DNA of 21,814 bases from a virus. The notes under the pieces are model-generated. The model saw only the letters and a program-made list of their open reading frames with translations, was not told the origin of the DNA and did not search any database. The position numbers and the translations under genes were made by a program. This document shows positions 1,894 to 16,830 of this stretch, in pieces. The stretch spans positions 27,231-49,044 of IMG/VR virus record IMGVR_UViG_3300030116_002175. One strand, written 5' to 3'. The first letter of the stretch is position 1. Every line of letters starts with the position of its first letter.

Positions 1894-1948
1894 GAAGCCA
1901 CAATGCCTCCTTTCTGTGTTACTCATGGGTTGTGGCTTCGTTTTCTTT
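1894..1948 (+). terminator. 10-bp hairpin followed by a T-rich run; terminator or attenuator candidate
   Basis: GAAGCCACAA (1894-1903) and TTGTGGCTTC (1930-1939) are perfect reverse complements with a 26-base loop. GTTTTCTTT follows at 1940-1948. The long loop is unusual for an intrinsic terminator. The 3' arm ends about 10 bases before the primase Shine-Dalgarno (GGAGAGG, 1949-1955), so the hairpin may instead regulate primase expression. Confidence 0.45.
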
Positions 1949-1957
1949 GGAGAGGTT

Positions 1958-3475
1958 ATGGAGTTAGCAGAAAAGTTATTTAAATTATTTGAAGGTAATA
2001 AACGAGCCTACGGTGTTGTTGACCTTGATGAAAACGGTAGTGGTAAAAAGACTGGTGTATATAAGATAATTAAAAAGCCACCCGAAGTACAACACTGGAT
2101 TGACCATTTAAATGGTAAACAAGGTCTAGGTATTATACCTATTATGGATGATAATACTTGTTTATGGGGAGCTATCGATGTTGATAACTACCAAGTAGAC
2201 CATAAGAATTTAGTTGAAAGATTACGCAAAGAAAGAATTATAGGTTGGGTCGCAAGAAGTAAATCAGGTGGAGCCCATATATATTTCTTTTTTAAGGAAC
2301 CTATAAAAGCATCTACAGTAAAAAATAAACTTGCAGAGATTGCGTCAGGATTGGGGCAAGCTGAAGGTGAAGTGTTTCCTAAACAATCAGAAATATTAGT
2401 GGAGCGTGGTGATACTGGCAATGGATTAAACATGCCTTACTATAAAGGTAAGATGAGTACACGGTCTGTGTATGATCTTAAAACACTAGATGTACTATCA
2501 CCTGAGGAGTTTGTTAAAAAAGCCTCACAATATAAAATAGGTAAACAACAGTTTACTGATTATAAGATAAATGCCAATCAAGACAATCACTTACCCGATG
2601 GACCACCTTGTCTTCAACACTTATGCAGTATGGGTTTTGGCGAAGGGTCACGCAATAATGCTCTATTTAATCTAGGTGTTTACGCTCGCATGTTTGATGC
2701 TGATAACTGGGAGGCTTTGATACAAAGATATAATCTAGAGTATTTGAAACCCTCACTTTCACATGCTGAAGTTGGAGCAGTGATCAAGCAGTTGCAACGC
2801 AAAGATTACTTTTATAAATGTGAAGACCAACCTATAAAACCTTTTTGTAATAAAGAAGTGTGTGTCACACGCAAACATGGTGTTGGACCAAATGGTGTAC
2901 AGAACAGTATGTCAGCACTTACAAAAATAGATGGTGATCCACCCATCTGGATTTTAAATGTAGATGGACAAAGGTTAGAGTTAAGTACGGATGGATTAGT
3001 TTCACAAACAAGATTCCAAAAAGATTGTGTATCACAGATAAATAGATTACCAAGAACAGTAAGTCAAAATGCTTGGCAGACAAGAATACAATTACTGTTG
3101 GATAGTTTAACTATTGTAGAAGTGCCACCAGATGCTACTATTAAAGGTGAGTTTGAAGATTTACTGCATTCCTTTTGTAGTGAAAGAGCAAGGGGTGTGG
3201 AACGTGAAGATATTTTGCAAGGAGTTGCAGTATGGATGGATGGAAAAGTTTACTTTCAAGTTAAAGATATTAAGAAACATCTTTCAGTAAATGATTTTAA
3301 CCATTACTCTTCTTCTAAAATAACTTTACGATTACAGAATATAGAGGCTGATAAAATGTTTTGGCGAGTCAAAGGTAAGGGAATACATGTATGGTCGTTA
3401 CCACAAGAGTATTTTGAAACAGATGATGAGCCTATGAAGTTACCTGACATACCTAAACAAGAAGATGTAATATAA
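1958..3475 (+). CDS. Archaeo-eukaryotic-type primase of the TOTE/AEP family
   Basis: This encodes a 505-residue DNA primase. The ATG at 1958 is chosen for its GGAGAGG site; an upstream in-frame start at 1916 lies inside the hairpin region. AEP motifs are visible: the metal-binding pair A-I-D-V-D (D74, D76), S-K-S-G-G-A-H (S101-H107), and E-V-F-P-K-Q (138-143) followed by G-N-G-L-N-M-P-Y. A helical middle region leads to a cysteine cluster (C288, C297, C302) followed by T-R-K-H-G, which may bind metal. The C-terminus (about 400-500) looks like a winged-helix domain. It synthesises primers for replication. It overlaps the helicase start by one base (TAATG), so the two proteins are probably made together. 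Confidence 0.8.
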   Translation: MELAEKLFKLFEGNKRAYGVVDLDENGSGKKTGVYKIIKKPPEVQHWIDHLNGKQGLGIIPIMDDNTCLWGAIDVDNYQVDHKNLVERLRKERIIGWVARSKSGGAHIYFFFKEPIKASTVKNKLAEIASGLGQAEGEVFPKQSEILVERGDTGNGLNMPYYKGKMSTRSVYDLKTLDVLSPEEFVKKASQYKIGKQQFTDYKINANQDNHLPDGPPCLQHLCSMGFGEGSRNNALFNLGVYARMFDADNWEALIQRYNLEYLKPSLSHAEVGAVIKQLQRKDYFYKCEDQPIKPFCNKEVCVTRKHGVGPNGVQNSMSALTKIDGDPPIWILNVDGQRLELSTDGLVSQTRFQKDCVSQINRLPRTVSQNAWQTRIQLLLDSLTIVEVPPDATIKGEFEDLLHSFCSERARGVEREDILQGVAVWMDGKVYFQVKDIKKHLSVNDFNHYSSSKITLRLQNIEADKMFWRVKGKGIHVWSLPQEYFETDDEPMKLPDIPKQEDVI

Positions 3476-5016: not shown

Positions 5017-5044
5017 TTTACAGTTAGGTATCACACTATATATT
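5017..5044 (+). promoter_or_regulatory. Candidate sigma70-type promoter for the 5081 operon
   Basis: TTTACA (5017-5022) is 16 bases from TATATT (5039-5044), in an 88-base gap after the helicase gene. ATCAC at 5030-5034 lies four bases before the -10 box, matching three other gaps in this window. The gene start is 37 bases downstream of the -10. Confidence 0.55.
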
Positions 5045-7066: not shown

Positions 7067-7962
7067 TAGAAAATTTTTACGAGTGGATAAATGAACGTCA
7101 TTCCATTTATCTCGCTAGAGTTAGGGGGGACAGTCCACCATGGACTGAAGACCCTATTTTGCGTGAATATAAATTTACAAATCCATTTAGGGAAAACGAC
7201 CGTACTACTGTGTGGATGAGGCAAAACTGGACAAAGCCTAATGACAATAAGAAGGCTGGAGAAATAATTTTTAATTGTTGTATGTTCAGAATGATAGGCA
7301 CAATAGAGTTTGCAAATGCTCATGGTTGGGTCAACGCTGATGCACTGGAGTGGGATCCTGATAAAACAGTAGCCTTAATTGAAGATAGATTAAAACAAGG
7401 TTTACGAACATTTACTGGAGCGTATATTATAACTAATCAAGGTATTAAGAAACCAAAGTCGGAGGTAGTTGTATATGAGTTCCTTGTTCCGATATACCAA
7501 AACCAAGTCATGCTTGGGTCGGTGGCAACCGAAAGTCAGTCGCTTCAAGCCTTACACAAAGTGTTGGCTACCTATAAAGGGTGGGGAGGCGGAGGCTTTA
7601 TGTCATACGAAGTCGTTTCCGACCTCAACTACACATCTGTATTGGACAAGGCGAAAGACCGTTTTACTTGGGCAAACGCAGGACCAGGAGCAATGAGGGG
7701 TATTAATAGAATACATGGCTATGACCTAAAAAGAATGCACTCTCAAGAAAGAGCTAACAGATTTATGCAAGACATATTAGCTGAAAAGCATAAGTATCTT
7801 GACATAGAAGTAGTAAATGCTTTTGATGTAGACATGCGAACTATTGAGCATAGCTTGTGTGAGTGGGACAAGTATGAAAGAGTTAGGCTTGGTCAGGGCA
7901 AACCAAGAAGTAAATTTAAAGAAGTAATGTTGCCCATACCGAAAGGACCAGTCAATGAGTAG
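7063..7962 (+). CDS. Alpha-glutamyl/putrescinyl thymine pyrophosphorylase-family protein (amino acid:DNA transferase-like)
   Basis: This encodes a 299-residue protein matching the helical domain family named after 5-hmdU DNA kinases (HMUDK_hel) and the aGPT-PPlase group. Signature stretches are W-T-E-D-P-I-L-R-E-Y-K-F-T-N (about 27-40), R-E-N-D-R-T-T-V-W near 43-51, F-T-G-A-Y-I-I-T near 115, G-P-G-A-M-R-G-I (207-214) and L-C-E-W-D-K-Y-E-R-V-R-L-G (from 265). In phages with hypermodified thymidine, members of this family replace pyrophosphate on activated 5-hydroxymethyluracil in DNA with an amine-bearing group. There is no fused P-loop kinase domain and none elsewhere in this window. It is ATGA-coupled to the zinc-ribbon gene and overlaps the glycosyltransferase gene by 8 bases. 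Confidence 0.8.
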   Translation: MIENFYEWINERHSIYLARVRGDSPPWTEDPILREYKFTNPFRENDRTTVWMRQNWTKPNDNKKAGEIIFNCCMFRMIGTIEFANAHGWVNADALEWDPDKTVALIEDRLKQGLRTFTGAYIITNQGIKKPKSEVVVYEFLVPIYQNQVMLGSVATESQSLQALHKVLATYKGWGGGGFMSYEVVSDLNYTSVLDKAKDRFTWANAGPGAMRGINRIHGYDLKRMHSQERANRFMQDILAEKHKYLDIEVVNAFDVDMRTIEHSLCEWDKYERVRLGQGKPRSKFKEVMLPIPKGPVNE

Positions 7963-8767
7963 CACAATGATCTATATTCCTACACGAGGTAGGATAAGCA
8001 CACAAACAACTTGGCATAGTATAGGCGATTGGGCAAGAGCAAATGCTTGTTTAGTTTGCCCTGAAGATGAAATGAGTTATCATGTTAAGTATGGTAGAAA
8101 CTGTTTATCAAGAGGCGACATTAAGGGCATCAATAATGTACGATCTTTCATAATGCAACATGCAGTAGACAATCAAATTGAAAAAATAATTATGCTTGAT
8201 GATGACTTAATATTTGGTAGAAGAGCAAGTAATGATGCACCTAATCTACGCAAAACAACACAAGAAGAAATGGAACAGTTGTGGCAACGAATGTTTCATT
8301 TACTTGACAGATATGTTCATGTTGGGTTAAGTCCTCGCCAAATGAATGATAAACATTTTCCTGCCGTAACAAAGTATGGCATGAGGATGAACGCAGTACA
8401 TGGTATAAGACCAATGGGTGTAGCTCAATACAATATAAAATACAATGATGTAGAACTTATGGAAGATTATTTTGTGACATTATCTTTATTTGCAAATGGA
8501 GAGCCTAGTGCTACCATAGTAGATTGGACATGGGATCAACGTGGTGGTAGTGGACAAAGCGGAGGGTGTAGTAATTATAGGACACCTGAGTTACAAGAGA
8601 AAGCTAGTTTTAAATTAGCCGAACTGTTTCCTGACTTTGTTAAAGTTGTGGAAAAAGAAACCAAAACTGGTTGGGAAGGAATGAAAAAAAGATATGACGT
8701 TAGAGTACAATGGCGACGAGCGTTTAAGGCAGGATGCCCCAAATTCAATCCAAGTGGAGCTAACTGA
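7955..8767 (+). CDS. GT-A-type glycosyltransferase, TAGT-like (DNA base modification)
   Basis: This encodes a 270-residue protein. It begins with I-Y-I-P-T-R-G-R (6-13), a nucleotide-sugar-binding start typical of the TET-associated glycosyltransferase (TAGT) family. The metal-binding acidic cluster is M-L-D-D-D-L (D82-D84), and a second acidic pair (E170, D171, in L-M-E-D-Y) fits the usual catalytic or substrate region of GT-A enzymes. A glycine-serine-rich loop (R-G-G-S-G-Q-S-G-G) lies near residue 195. TAGTs are predicted to add sugars to hydroxymethylated bases in phage DNA. No TET/JBP oxygenase is in this window, so 5-hydroxymethyluracil would come from the nucleotide pool. The family call is from motif memory; another GT-A family is possible. 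Confidence 0.62.
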   Translation: MSSTMIYIPTRGRISTQTTWHSIGDWARANACLVCPEDEMSYHVKYGRNCLSRGDIKGINNVRSFIMQHAVDNQIEKIIMLDDDLIFGRRASNDAPNLRKTTQEEMEQLWQRMFHLLDRYVHVGLSPRQMNDKHFPAVTKYGMRMNAVHGIRPMGVAQYNIKYNDVELMEDYFVTLSLFANGEPSATIVDWTWDQRGGSGQSGGCSNYRTPELQEKASFKLAELFPDFVKVVEKETKTGWEGMKKRYDVRVQWRRAFKAGCPKFNPSGAN

Positions 8768-9734
8768 AGGTTGTAACCTCGCTTGTTCTTTCTGTGGTAT
8801 ACAACAGATTCGTGACAATGGTGCTGATGGTCCAAGTTGGACTCACGGTAAAAATTCAAAAGAGTATAAGTTTATGACTAAAGAAACTTTGTATTCTATA
8901 ATTAATACAGTCAAAAACAGCAACTGGAATCCTAGGTTTGAGTTTGCAATGCACGGTGAACCTACCATGCACCCTGAGTACAAAGAGTTTATTCATATCG
9001 TGCGAACAAGTTTACCAAAAGCCTCTATCATGATGACAAGTAATGGTGGAGGTTTGCTTGGTGATGTCAATACAAAAGTAAACGAACTTATGGAAGCTGG
9101 ACTTAACATATTATTTTTAGATAATTATGAAAGAATTAGGATAGTGGACAAAATAAAAGAAAAATACAATGGTCCATACAAAGTTGTAGAATATCCACAA
9201 AACCCAGAAGGCAACCCTCACAAACGAAAAAAGCCTCATGAAAAAATTATTGTAGTTGGTGCTGACCTTACTATTGCAACGAGTGGAACACACGCACAAG
9301 TCAGTAACCATGCTGGATCAGCCTTCCCACTAAACCACAAGCAACAAGGAAAAAGATGTGCAAAACCTTTCCGTGAGTTAAGTGTTCGTTGGGACGGTAA
9401 TGTAGCAGTTTGTTGTAATGACTGGACTGGGATTTATAAATGTGGTAATGTAAATGATTATGCAAAAATAGATGACTTATGGAACAATGATGCTTTTTAT
9501 TCTGCAAGAGTAAAACTTTACCACGGACAACGAGACTTCGGTCCATGCAATGGTTGTGATAATACTACTATCCGTAATGGGTTACTGCCTGACCGTATGG
9601 GTAAACAAGACTTACCATTACCTGATAAGACGACTAATTACTTTATTGATAAAGCGTGTGGTGGTAATAGTTATACTAAAGCAGTGAAGCCAGTTTATGA
9701 CTTTATTAACTTGCCCTCTGACAAGTTGATTTAG
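8694..9734 (+). CDS. Radical SAM enzyme with SPASM-like C-terminal cysteine region
   Basis: This encodes a 346-residue protein. The 4Fe-4S/SAM motif is C-N-L-A-C-S-F-C (C27, C31, C34), preceded by S-I-Q-V-E-L-T-E-G. A-M-H-G-E-P-T-M-H-P follows as the usual SAM-ligand strand. The C-terminal part has R-C-A-K-P-F, W-D-G-N-V-A-V-C-C-N-D-W and finally P-C-N-G-C, typical of SPASM or twitch auxiliary iron-sulfur clusters. The ATG at 8694 lies within the end of the glycosyltransferase gene, giving a 74-base overlap; later in-frame starts would cut into the core. Radical SAM enzymes occur in phage thymidine-hypermodification loci, where they rearrange the attached amino acid; that role here is inferred from position. 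Confidence 0.85.
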   Translation: MTLEYNGDERLRQDAPNSIQVELTEGCNLACSFCGIQQIRDNGADGPSWTHGKNSKEYKFMTKETLYSIINTVKNSNWNPRFEFAMHGEPTMHPEYKEFIHIVRTSLPKASIMMTSNGGGLLGDVNTKVNELMEAGLNILFLDNYERIRIVDKIKEKYNGPYKVVEYPQNPEGNPHKRKKPHEKIIVVGADLTIATSGTHAQVSNHAGSAFPLNHKQQGKRCAKPFRELSVRWDGNVAVCCNDWTGIYKCGNVNDYAKIDDLWNNDAFYSARVKLYHGQRDFGPCNGCDNTTIRNGLLPDRMGKQDLPLPDKTTNYFIDKACGGNSYTKAVKPVYDFINLPSDKLI

Positions 9735-9811: not shown

Positions 9812-10807
9812 ATGTTAAAACAACTATCTGGAGTGCATACCTTTGTCGTAGGTAACGTAGCTGAAGCTCTTTACCTTACAATACAATCATTGAAAGAAAG
9901 TGGTATAGAGGTAGAAACTAGGAATGGCTCAGCAAAAGAGTTTCCTATGCCAGTTGCTATCACTTACAATAAACCTTTGGAGAGAGTTATATATTATCCT
10001 GAACGTGATGCTAATCCAGTGTTTCACTTTATGGAATCACTCTGGATGCTAAATGGTAATAATGACCTACAGTCTATTGAGTATTTTAATAAACGTATGC
10101 GTGACTTTAGTGATGATGGTGAGTGGCTACATGGTGCTTATGGTCATAGATGGCGTAGACATTTTGTAATCGACCAACTACAAATTATTATTCGCAGACT
10201 TAAATCTATACCTAATGATAGACGGTCAGTGCTTACCATGTGGGATCCACACGCTGATTTATTAGAACACAATGCTAGAAAAGACTTACCATGTAATACT
10301 CATGTATATTTTACAATAAGAAACAAAAAGTTACATATGACAGTATGTAATAGAAGTAATGATTTGATATGGGGTTGTTGTGGTGCTAATGCTGTGCATA
10401 TGAGTTACTTACAAGAATACGTTGCAACAATGGTTGGTGTAGAGGTAGGGACATACACACAGTTTACACAAAACCTTCATGCTTATAATAGTGTTTTGAA
10501 AACATTAGTAGACATGCAACCAGACTATGATTCTTATGATACACGAGGGTTTGAATATCAAGCACCTTTGATAAATGACAAAGACTTGTTTGATTATGAA
10601 TTACAAGCCTTTATGGATGGAAGCATAAACAGAGATTTTAGAAATAATATTTTTACAGAAGTAGCTCTCCCAATGTTTTGGTTATGGGAAGCATGGAAAA
10701 GTAAAAATCATATGGAGTGCATGACAGCTATATCACAAATACAATCGGATGATTGGCGTTTGGCATGTAGAGAATGGATAGATAGAAGGAGTGATAAATT
10801 AAAATGA
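9812..10807 (+). CDS. Thymidylate synthase family protein (ThyA-type TS or dUMP hydroxymethylase)
   Basis: This encodes a 331-residue enzyme. The ATG at 9812 follows AAAGGGGG; the in-frame start at 9734 would add an unrelated N-terminus. TS landmarks are present: F-H-F-M-E-S-L-W-M-L-N-G (Glu75), D-R-R-S-V (R137-R138), catalytic Cys161 in L-P-C-N-T-H, phosphate-binding R-S-N-D (181-184), the pyrimidine-contacting Asn193 in G-A-N-A-V, and N-L-H-A-Y (221-225). Asn rather than Asp at the base-recognition position points to dUMP rather than dCMP. The G-A-N-A-V-H variant differs from the cellular P-F-N-I-A and resembles phage enzymes. Because it sits with hypermodification genes, it may make 5-hydroxymethyl-dUMP; sequence alone cannot separate the two activities. 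Confidence 0.88.
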   Translation: MLKQLSGVHTFVVGNVAEALYLTIQSLKESGIEVETRNGSAKEFPMPVAITYNKPLERVIYYPERDANPVFHFMESLWMLNGNNDLQSIEYFNKRMRDFSDDGEWLHGAYGHRWRRHFVIDQLQIIIRRLKSIPNDRRSVLTMWDPHADLLEHNARKDLPCNTHVYFTIRNKKLHMTVCNRSNDLIWGCCGANAVHMSYLQEYVATMVGVEVGTYTQFTQNLHAYNSVLKTLVDMQPDYDSYDTRGFEYQAPLINDKDLFDYELQAFMDGSINRDFRNNIFTEVALPMFWLWEAWKSKNHMECMTAISQIQSDDWRLACREWIDRRSDKLK

Positions 10808-15382: not shown

Positions 15383-15557
15383 ATTACCAGAAGATGTACA
15401 AAGCGAAGTCAGGCTTGAGTTAAGGAAACAATCATTACTCGGTAAAAACGCTTTCCCTTATCAATACATTGGGAGTGGTTGGCTATCTCGCAAAAAAGAT
15501 GGCACAATATTATTTAGACCTCATGGGTTTAGGAAAGCAGAGGTAAGACGTGACTAA
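15360..15557 (+). CDS. Small hypothetical protein (65 aa)
   Basis: The ATG at 15360 follows AAAGGAAAG; an in-frame start at 15330 has no ribosome site. The protein has an acidic helix (E-L-P-E-D-V-Q-S-E-V-R-L-E-L-R-K) and a basic end (R-K-A-E-V-R-R-D). It overlaps the previous gene by 23 bases and the regulator downstream by 8, so it appears to be co-translated. Function unknown. Confidence 0.55.
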   Translation: MQYQTINELPEDVQSEVRLELRKQSLLGKNAFPYQYIGSGWLSRKKDGTILFRPHGFRKAEVRRD

Positions 15558-15897
15558 ACTAACACCTGATGTTGAGGACAGCATACGGACTTGTTTGACA
15601 CACTTGAACCAACCGAGTATGAGATGGACAAATAAAAAATTGGCAAAGTTCTTCAATGTGTCTGAAGTAACGATGCGTAGATGGATTGATAAACTACAAC
15701 TCGCACGATTTGTGGTGGATGGACGTAATAAAATGTCACCCTTCTACAACAAAGATCGTAACAGTCTTATCTATGAGGATTACTGGACTCACCAAAGAAG
15801 TCTAGCTGATATTGGTAAGATATATGGTATGTCACGTCAACGTGTCCATCAAATAGTAAAGAAAGCAGAGAAGCATAGATTAAAAGGATTACTATAA
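15550..15897 (+). CDS. Double helix-turn-helix protein with sigma-region-4-like motif; putative transcription regulator
   Basis: This encodes a 115-residue basic protein with a GTG start (AGAGG upstream, coupled to the previous gene). Two helix-turn-helix segments are visible. Residues 29-48 read K-K-L-A-K-F-F-N-V-S-E-V-T-M-R-R-W, and residues 84-105 read S-L-A-D-I-G-K-I-Y-G-M-S-R-Q-R-V-H-Q-I. The second closely follows region 4.2 of sigma-70 factors (D-I-G-x-x-x-G-x-S-R-x-R-V-x-Q-I), which contacts the -35 element. There is no region 2, so it is not a complete sigma factor. It is a plausible phage regulator of the downstream promoters; targets are unknown. Confidence 0.7.
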   Translation: MTKLTPDVEDSIRTCLTHLNQPSMRWTNKKLAKFFNVSEVTMRRWIDKLQLARFVVDGRNKMSPFYNKDRNSLIYEDYWTHQRSLADIGKIYGMSRQRVHQIVKKAEKHRLKGLL

Positions 15898-15963: not shown

Positions 15964-16236
15964 ATGGAAGCAAAACAAAAGTCGCCACGACATGCAGATA
16001 ACATGGTCAGGCAACATTTACCTGAAAAGTTATTTACAAAGGGTCATGGTCCAATGGCTCTCGCCCATGAGTGTATGGAGTTAAGTACAAAAATCCAGCA
16101 CTTATCTGAGGACTACATGTTTGTCACAGTGTTTATGGAATATGTTAAATTAAAAGATCCAGCACTCTACAAGCAAGGTAAGTTGACAGCAGAGAGTGTA
16201 ATTAATAATAGCAACAAGGAGGAAACCAGTGATTGA
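15964..16236 (+). CDS. Hypothetical protein (90 aa)
   Basis: The ATG follows CAGAAAGGAAAA. The protein is helical and His/Met-rich, with H-G-P-M-A-L-A-H-E-C-M-E-L-S-T-K-I at about 28-44 and a C-terminal acidic, asparagine-rich tail. No motif is recognised. The AAGGAGG near its 3' end (16216-16222) serves a short frame that overlaps it by 8 bases. Confidence 0.6.
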   Translation: MEAKQKSPRHADNMVRQHLPEKLFTKGHGPMALAHECMELSTKIQHLSEDYMFVTVFMEYVKLKDPALYKQGKLTAESVINNSNKEETSD

Positions 16237-16297
16237 TTATGTAATACATTTTGTTTTTGAGCAAACGCTCTACACTCTTTTTACACAGATTTTTTAA
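16229..16297 (+). CDS. Short hydrophobic peptide (22 aa), possible leader peptide
   Basis: GTG at 16229 is 6 bases after a perfect AAGGAGG (16216-16222), and the frame runs to TAA at 16297. The product is rich in aromatic and aliphatic residues (M-I-D-Y-V-I-H-F-V-F, then L-Y-T-L-F-T-Q-I-F). No other start nearby explains this strong ribosome site. It ends just before the structured region 16302-16487, so it could be a leader peptide coupled to that RNA, or a small membrane peptide. Confidence 0.42.
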   Translation: MIDYVIHFVFEQTLYTLFTQIF

Positions 16298-16301
16298 CAG
16301 T

Positions 16302-16487
16302 TACGAGGGTGGAGGCAACTCCTTTACATGGGGTCGGTGGCAAGTCCGACCTCTACAATGGTGTAGATGCACAAACTGTCTTCCCTCATTTATTAGTGAA
16401 CGAGACAGTTTTGTGGAGCTGAGTTTTAATATGTTTTTCATGGTGATGGGATCGTCTCCTCTAAAAATGGTTGTCCCGAATCTACAC
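16302..16487 (+). ncRNA. Candidate structured non-coding RNA in a gene-free stretch
   Basis: Four local hairpins can be drawn. GGAG-GCAA-CTCC (16311-16322) has a GNRA loop. GGTCGG/CCGACC (16332-16337 with 16346-16351) is the second. TCTACA-ATGG-TGTAGA (16352-16367) is the third. The fourth is a 9-bp stem (16373-16381 with 16403-16411) topped by a smaller hairpin (16386-16399). GTGTAGAT (16361-16368) can also pair with ATCTACAC (16480-16487), which is exclusive with the third hairpin, and GAGGG (16305-16309) can pair with CCCTC (16383-16387). I counted 58 G or C in 16301-16420, GC-rich for this area. The open frame over it starts at TTG without a ribosome site and looks non-coding. No known RNA family was recognised. 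Confidence 0.5.
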
Positions 16488-16517
16488 AAACTTGCACTTT
16501 TATAGAAAGGAAAGTAA

Positions 16518-16724
16518 ATGGAAGAGTTAATTAATCATAAGGGCGAGCGTCAAAGAACAGACGGCATACCTAGAAGAATAGTATCAACCCGAATATTATT
16601 ACAATGGAATGATACACCTAAAGAAGAAATAAGCCTACACGAGATGCCTCATGAGGTGGCTGAAAGTTTTGACCGTTGGCTGTCAATGATTGAAGACGAA
16701 GAAAACAAAAAGGTCGGCTTATGA
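16518..16724 (+). CDS. Small hypothetical protein (68 aa)
   Basis: The ATG follows TATAGAAAGGAAAG. The first half is basic (H-K-G-E-R-Q-R-T-D-G-I-P-R-R-I-V) and the second acidic, with a helix H-E-V-A-E-S-F-D-R-W-L-S-M-I-E-D-E-E. It may be regulated by the structured RNA region directly upstream. The stop is in an ATGA overlap with a tiny hydrophobic frame. Function unknown. Confidence 0.58.
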   Translation: MEELINHKGERQRTDGIPRRIVSTRILLQWNDTPKEEISLHEMPHEVAESFDRWLSMIEDEENKKVGL

Positions 16725-16799: not shown

Positions 16800-16830
16800 T
16801 AATTATAGTAAACAACAGAAGGAGGTCTAT

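Follow-up and report, generated by a model that had tools for sequence, protein, structure and literature searches.

RNAs as complex as the one described here and with covariation as strong are uncommon, and most of them have proved to have basic roles. GOLLD and ROOL are several times larger than our ~195-nt RNA and form large homo-oligomers; HK022 putRNA is much smaller, consisting of two stem-loops near the transcript start that act in cis on RNA polymerase.

GOLLD and ROOL are established examples of orphan phage-associated structured RNAs (PMC12286853). Like our RNA, they are structured and non-coding, are in some cases phage-borne, contain pseudoknots, show covariation and have no assigned function (PMC12286853), although the resemblance is in kind only, with no sequence or model match between them. 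HK022 putRNA is comparable as an RNA element of a phage whose action depends on its structure (PMC9378689). The manA (RF01745) and wcaG (RF01761) motifs are also pseudoknotted and come from marine phages; they lie in presumptive 5′ UTRs of metabolic genes and are regarded as candidate riboswitches (PMC2864571). By contrast, the RNA described here has no conserved next gene and no Rfam match. It is of a known sort, the orphan structured RNAs of phages, with a new fold.

The first-pass annotation of this locus, made from the sequence, had proposed an undescribed structured RNA and had suggested an Infernal/Rfam search as one check. The search returned no family match for the window or its relatives: across Rfam 15 (4227 models), no covariance-model score reached the gathering score for the window and six relatives, and E values of up to 10 yielded chance-level matches only. 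The open-access literature contained no description of this RNA in related phages, and the main text of a 2022 paper covering 80 genomes of related pelagiphages does not mention non-coding RNA. Together with the conservation and covariation of the proposed long-range helix and GAGGG/CCCTC pairing (see below), these results bear the proposal out. With no counterpart in Rfam 15, the family is probably new among phage RNAs, and it would show that marine phage RNAs escape surveys based on protein genes.

Genomic setting and relatives

The window (the whole stretch analyzed, 21,814 nt, positions 27,231 to 49,044 of IMGVR_UViG_3300030116_002175) comes from a 51,249-base marine virus record, a phage related to pelagiphages. 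Its DNA polymerase is 52–56% identical to those of 023Pt_psg01, the Pelagibacter phages HTVC027P and HTVC023P, and DSL-LC04; BLASTN against cultured phages gave no match. The RNA and its neighbors are as follows.

15964 to 16236, + strand: upstream gene g15964, 90 aa, without a family match
16302 to 16496, + strand: whole RNA element, from the PK1 5′ strand to the PK3 3′ strand, defined by homologs and fold; candidate transcript limits
16518 to 16724, + strand: downstream gene, 68 aa, without a family match; kept as a neighbor only in the window's sub-clade

The gap holding the RNA (16237–16517, 281 nt) is the longest in the window without genes, the other gaps reaching ~100–150 nt, and it had rightly been singled out as unique and GC-rich (G+C 0.446 versus 0.375 for the window). 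ARAGORN detected no tRNA or tmRNA gene in the window. The interval first proposed, 16302–16487, is indeed structured, but the 3′ end lies at ~16496, as judged from PK3. Positions 15550–15897 of the window encode an HTH protein of 115 aa that matches sigma-70 region 4 (Pfam E 3e-8); its gene precedes the RNA in several clades.

The RNA family is present in at least 40 viral contigs. An exact-core scan returned three contigs, one near-identical to the window and two others in which the element is 97–99% identical and the downstream gene 81–88%. The upstream gene is as conserved as the element, and the conservation of the element in these nearest contigs is therefore not special by itself. A protein frame through the region would have argued against a non-coding element, and we looked for one: the differences between the nearest relatives include an indel of 1 or 2 bases that shifts the frame, no reading frame is open across the three nearest relatives, and stops occur in every frame in the members checked from other clades.

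We retrieved 80 loci through their DNA polymerase (L numbers denote the loci compared) and located the element by synteny and profile searches. It was found in L012–L016 (polymerase 93%), in L017 and L018 (80%), in L019–L039 and L081 (77–79%, the 78% clade), and in L040, L041 and L054; pattern scans added L094 and eight more contigs. A model from the 78% clade recovered L040, L041, L019, L020, L017 and L054 (E 4e-17 to 9e-4), and the L017 and L054 RNAs found in this way carry new PK2 and PK3 sequences that are perfectly matched. With filters off, model R2 had no match in HTVC027P, HTVC023P and 023Pt_psg01, which are cultured relatives, nor in L068, L069, L071 and L082; weak upstream-gene matches occur in L069 and L071, with no RNA found behind them. 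No copy turned up when 85,000 bacterial and archaeal genomes were scanned twice by pattern, with patterns that fit two sub-clades only.

Two search tools were set aside. The pattern CTCCTTT-GGTGAGT-TGTRGATG returned true members but also chance matches in L091 and L095, and a hand-written descriptor (P1 plus the Pb loop/tail pairing) placed true members at the top in most known loci and was unspecific in distant ones.

Predicted fold and covariation

The elements are arranged in the order 5′-PK1a-PK2a-(Pa)-Pb(PK3a)-(Pc)-P1-P3(PK1b)-(P4)-P5(PK2b)-P1′-PK3b-3′, where the bracketed Pa, Pc and P4 are clade-specific. Pb, P1, P3 and P5 together with PK1, PK2 and PK3 occur in this order in the window and its relatives. 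The parts in the window are listed here.

16305 to 16309, + strand: PK1 5′ strand GAGGG; partner CCCTC at 16383–16387 in the P3 loop
16311 to 16316, + strand: PK2 5′ strand GGAGGC; partner GTCTCC at 16454–16459 in the P5 loop
16311 to 16322, + strand: hairpin Pa, GGAG-GCAA-CTCC, with a GCAA loop; overlaps the PK2 5′ strand
16319 to 16325, + strand: pyrimidine motif CTCCTTT, 3′ arm of Pa; anti-Shine-Dalgarno-like, recurring in many members
16330 to 16353, + strand: hairpin Pb, GGGGTCGG-TGGCAAGT-CCGACCTC; three pairs changed on both sides, window versus L012–L015
16340 to 16345, + strand: PK3 5′ strand GCAAGT in the Pb loop; partner ACTTGC at 16490–16495
16352 to 16367, + strand: local hairpin TCTACA/TGTAGA, seen in the window sequence
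16361 to 16368, + strand: P1 5′ strand GTGTAGAT, with covariation; 8-bp long-range pairing
16370 to 16415, + strand: P3 hairpin CACAAACTGTC/GACAGTTTTGTG, PK1 3′ strand in its loop; covaries in the 12-member alignment
16420 to 16440, + strand: P4 hairpin TGAG/TTCA; window clade only, weak in the window, missing from L017
16448 to 16477, + strand: P5 hairpin GGGA/TCCC, PK2 3′ strand in its loop
16480 to 16487, + strand: P1 3′ strand ATCTACAC, pairing with GTGTAGAT at 16361–16368
16490 to 16495, + strand: PK3 3′ strand ACTTGC, in the 3′ tail of the RNA

Comparison of the relatives showed a predicted fold in which P1 closes a domain with P3 and P5, whose loops capture the 5′ strand (PK1 and PK2). 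The comparison likewise showed that the Pb loop captures the 3′ tail (PK3), which fixes both ends of the RNA within a single compact body. The hairpins, GCAA loop, 8-bp pairing, GAGGG and CCCTC named in the first-pass annotation are all present in the window sequence, and PK2 and PK3 are pairings that it lacked. Its hairpin set stood only in part, as the local TCTACA hairpin and the GNRA loop are present in the window but not conserved in relatives.

Pa and the PK2 5′ strand share bases, so the two predicted pairings are mutually competing, and PK2 is weaker in the window than in relatives. Pa reads GGAG/CTCC in the window and GGGU/ACCU in the 78% clade, with no covariation. The apical part of P3 varies in length between clades, and unpaired bases are conserved around P1 (CAANG before it, AAC after it). 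The CTCCTTT motif has exceptions in L019, L023, L040 and L041; in many members CTCCTTT(C) complements GAAAGGAG, the ribosome-binding sequence common in the phage, as does the 3′ end of 16S rRNA, and it could pair with Shine-Dalgarno sequences.

The folding energy did not stand out from that of random sequence (z = -1.09 over 291 nt, -1.81 over 191 nt), and the case for structure therefore rests on comparative evidence. For our main test, 12 RNAs from the 78% clade were aligned by MAFFT from sequence only, with a clade-specific hairpin trimmed from three, and the result is independent of hand-set segment limits. In this alignment, 96.8% of cells were paired versus 85.0% after shuffling (0/500 shuffles), 21 out of 44 pairs had changed on both sides versus 11.1 (0/500), and the covariation score was 0.360 versus 0.140 ± 0.014 (0/500). 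Sliding the partner by 1–3 columns lowered pairing to ~40%. PK1 was paired in 98.3% of cells, with GC/AU exchange, all P5 pairs (4/4) had changed on both sides, and the weakest helix, Pb, was 84.7% paired. RNAalifold predicted Pb, Pc, P1, P3 and P5 without a supplied structure. The covariation check suggested at the outset thus found arms that change with compensation, and both the 8-bp pairing (P1) and the GAGGG/CCCTC tertiary pairing (PK1) are conserved in relatives through compensatory change.

For the window itself, we aligned its sequence with L011, L012, L013 and L015, with linkers trimmed to align. Pairing reached 98.8% of cells, the covariation score was 0.276 versus 0.150 for shuffles (0/500), and each of Pb, PK3, P1, P4 and P5 contained pairs changed on both sides. 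The number of further pair types was not above that of the shuffles (330/500), and the support that this five-sequence alignment gives the predicted structure is good but not complete.

Between sub-clades the primary sequence has been almost wholly replaced, and the fold has been kept through compensatory change. In a cross-clade test on 13 members from all clades, with strand limits set by hand, we compared pairing with the own partner and with permuted partners. The values were 17.7 versus 13.7 for PK2 and 15.3 versus 10.8 for PK3 (0/20000 permutations for each; hand-set segments). PK1 showed no own-versus-other difference among the 13 members; with one strand rich in G and the other in C throughout the clades, the test is uninformative for this pairing. 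PK3 pairs GCAAGT with ACTTGC in the window, GTGAGTA with TACTCAC in L013 (GTGAGT/ACTCAC across L012–L015), CTAAGT with ACTTAG in L019, AAAGGGT with ACCCTTT in L021, and TGTATAG with CTATACA in L054. The PK2 pairs include GAGGGAACG/CGTTCCCTC (L013), GGTAGACA/TGTCTACC (L024) and GATAATCA/TGATTATC (L054); PK2 was not seen in L040 and L041.

A recombination or attachment site acting at the DNA level on the border of variable cassettes, with incidental pairing, would agree with cassettes that change right after the element while the upstream genes stay. Such a site predicts the opposite of the pattern between clades, where single-strand pairing is conserved and sequence is not, and we regard it as extremely improbable. 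The compact multi-pseudoknot fold and the conserved unpaired bases around P1 would suit a ribozyme, for example one processing a polycistronic transcript, but no Rfam ribozyme family was matched, and we consider a ribozyme improbable. A hammerhead-like reading of CTGATG...GAA was rejected on account of a misfit in cleavage-site context and junction.

Following genes and mode of action

Across the family, the gene that follows the RNA belongs to one of ~10 unrelated groups and is inherited separately from the RNA. The RNAs of L026, L029 and L030 are ~96% identical and precede unrelated genes; those of L028 and L026 are 68% identical and precede genes that are 92% identical. Inheritance of the predicted RNA independently of the following gene is shown by these comparisons, and the RNA, as mapped, sits at the edge of a variable region. 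Gene cassettes are swapped directly downstream of it in L024, L026, L028, L029 and L030. In the seven distinct window-clade loci compared, the same gene comes next, 15–26 nt past the element.

That constancy would fit the initial proposal that the RNA controls the gene at 16518 as a riboswitch or attenuator, with two TCTACA copies forming mutually exclusive pairings. However, the upstream TCTACA copy is missing in L012–L016 and in all other clades, so only the nearest relatives share the competition. In other members, unrelated genes follow and are swapped without regard to the RNA, control of the 16518 gene is not supported in general, and no terminator-like expression platform was found. The consistent tie to a regulated gene or pathway that marks a riboswitch is absent across the ~10 unrelated downstream groups, and we judge such a switch very unlikely. 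A free small RNA, which the first-pass annotation had offered as a second option, is the better fit, the next gene being swapped freely.

In most members of the 78% clade, the RNA is followed after 23–39 nt by a promoter-like motif, TCACRCTTTATTATA. Counted in the loci it came from, it occurs 14 times in 23 kb of intergenic sequence versus 8 times in 199 kb of coding sequence (~15-fold denser), and this recurrent intergenic motif is probably a phage promoter. Copies followed by a TATA-like sequence lie at 5031, 18184 and 19864 in the window, at 16191 and 16655 in L036, and at 16805 and 17316 in L026. In the window's sub-clade, the motif after the RNA is degenerate and the next gene is always the same, and cis control is therefore possible there. 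Searches for a promoter and terminator of the RNA's own, and for a terminator-like site after it, found none.

On the 5′ side, other clades have a different small gene upstream, whose stop codon often falls inside the first bases of the RNA; in the 78% clade, these bases contain the last stop codon of the upstream operon. A small protein family, MDKQDLE...DWASPT..., without a Pfam match, is encoded upstream of the RNA in L019–L041 and L054, and in most members its gene stops at the RNA's 5′ strand or within it.

We favor, as the likeliest account and with fair confidence, a gene-independent structured non-coding phage RNA of ~195 nt that is read from the upstream operon and probably acts in trans. 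Read-through transcription from this operon, which often includes the sigma-70 region-4-like HTH gene, would make the RNA, and its body would end ahead of the next gene's promoter. A discrete RNA would then be released or processed and would act in trans in the infected cell, as a stable RNA that binds protein or serves as a scaffold and not as a single-gene leader; we infer trans action because the RNA is independent of the next gene. More tentatively, it may represent a new functional RNA class, catalytic or an RNP scaffold, of an abundant marine phage group, with a fold unlike any known ribozyme, riboswitch or regulatory RNA in which three loop–strand pseudoknots bind both ends to a central helix.

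A general cis-acting element would likewise tolerate gene swapping, working on the transcription or stability of any downstream gene as a put-like antitermination element, an attenuator or a processing signal. The RNA is always on the same strand as the gene cassette and directly before it, and in most clades it lies downstream of a sigma-70 region-4-like HTH gene, as such an element might. Yet it follows genes, unlike HK022 putRNA-like elements near the transcript start, the promoter-like motif often comes after it, and the missing downstream terminator also argues against this account, which we hold to be unlikely. The RNA's length of ~195 nt, its many natural variants and a secondary-structure model already tested make probing, cryo-EM and in vitro selection directly feasible.

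Elsewhere in the window, a TET-associated glycosyltransferase family protein (7955–8767), a radical SAM/SPASM protein (8694–9734) and a thymidylate synthase homolog (9830–10807) are encoded in a row, which suggests DNA base hypermodification. Positions 1916–3475 encode a primase with a match to the TOTE-type archaeo-eukaryotic primase domain (Pfam E 4e-17).
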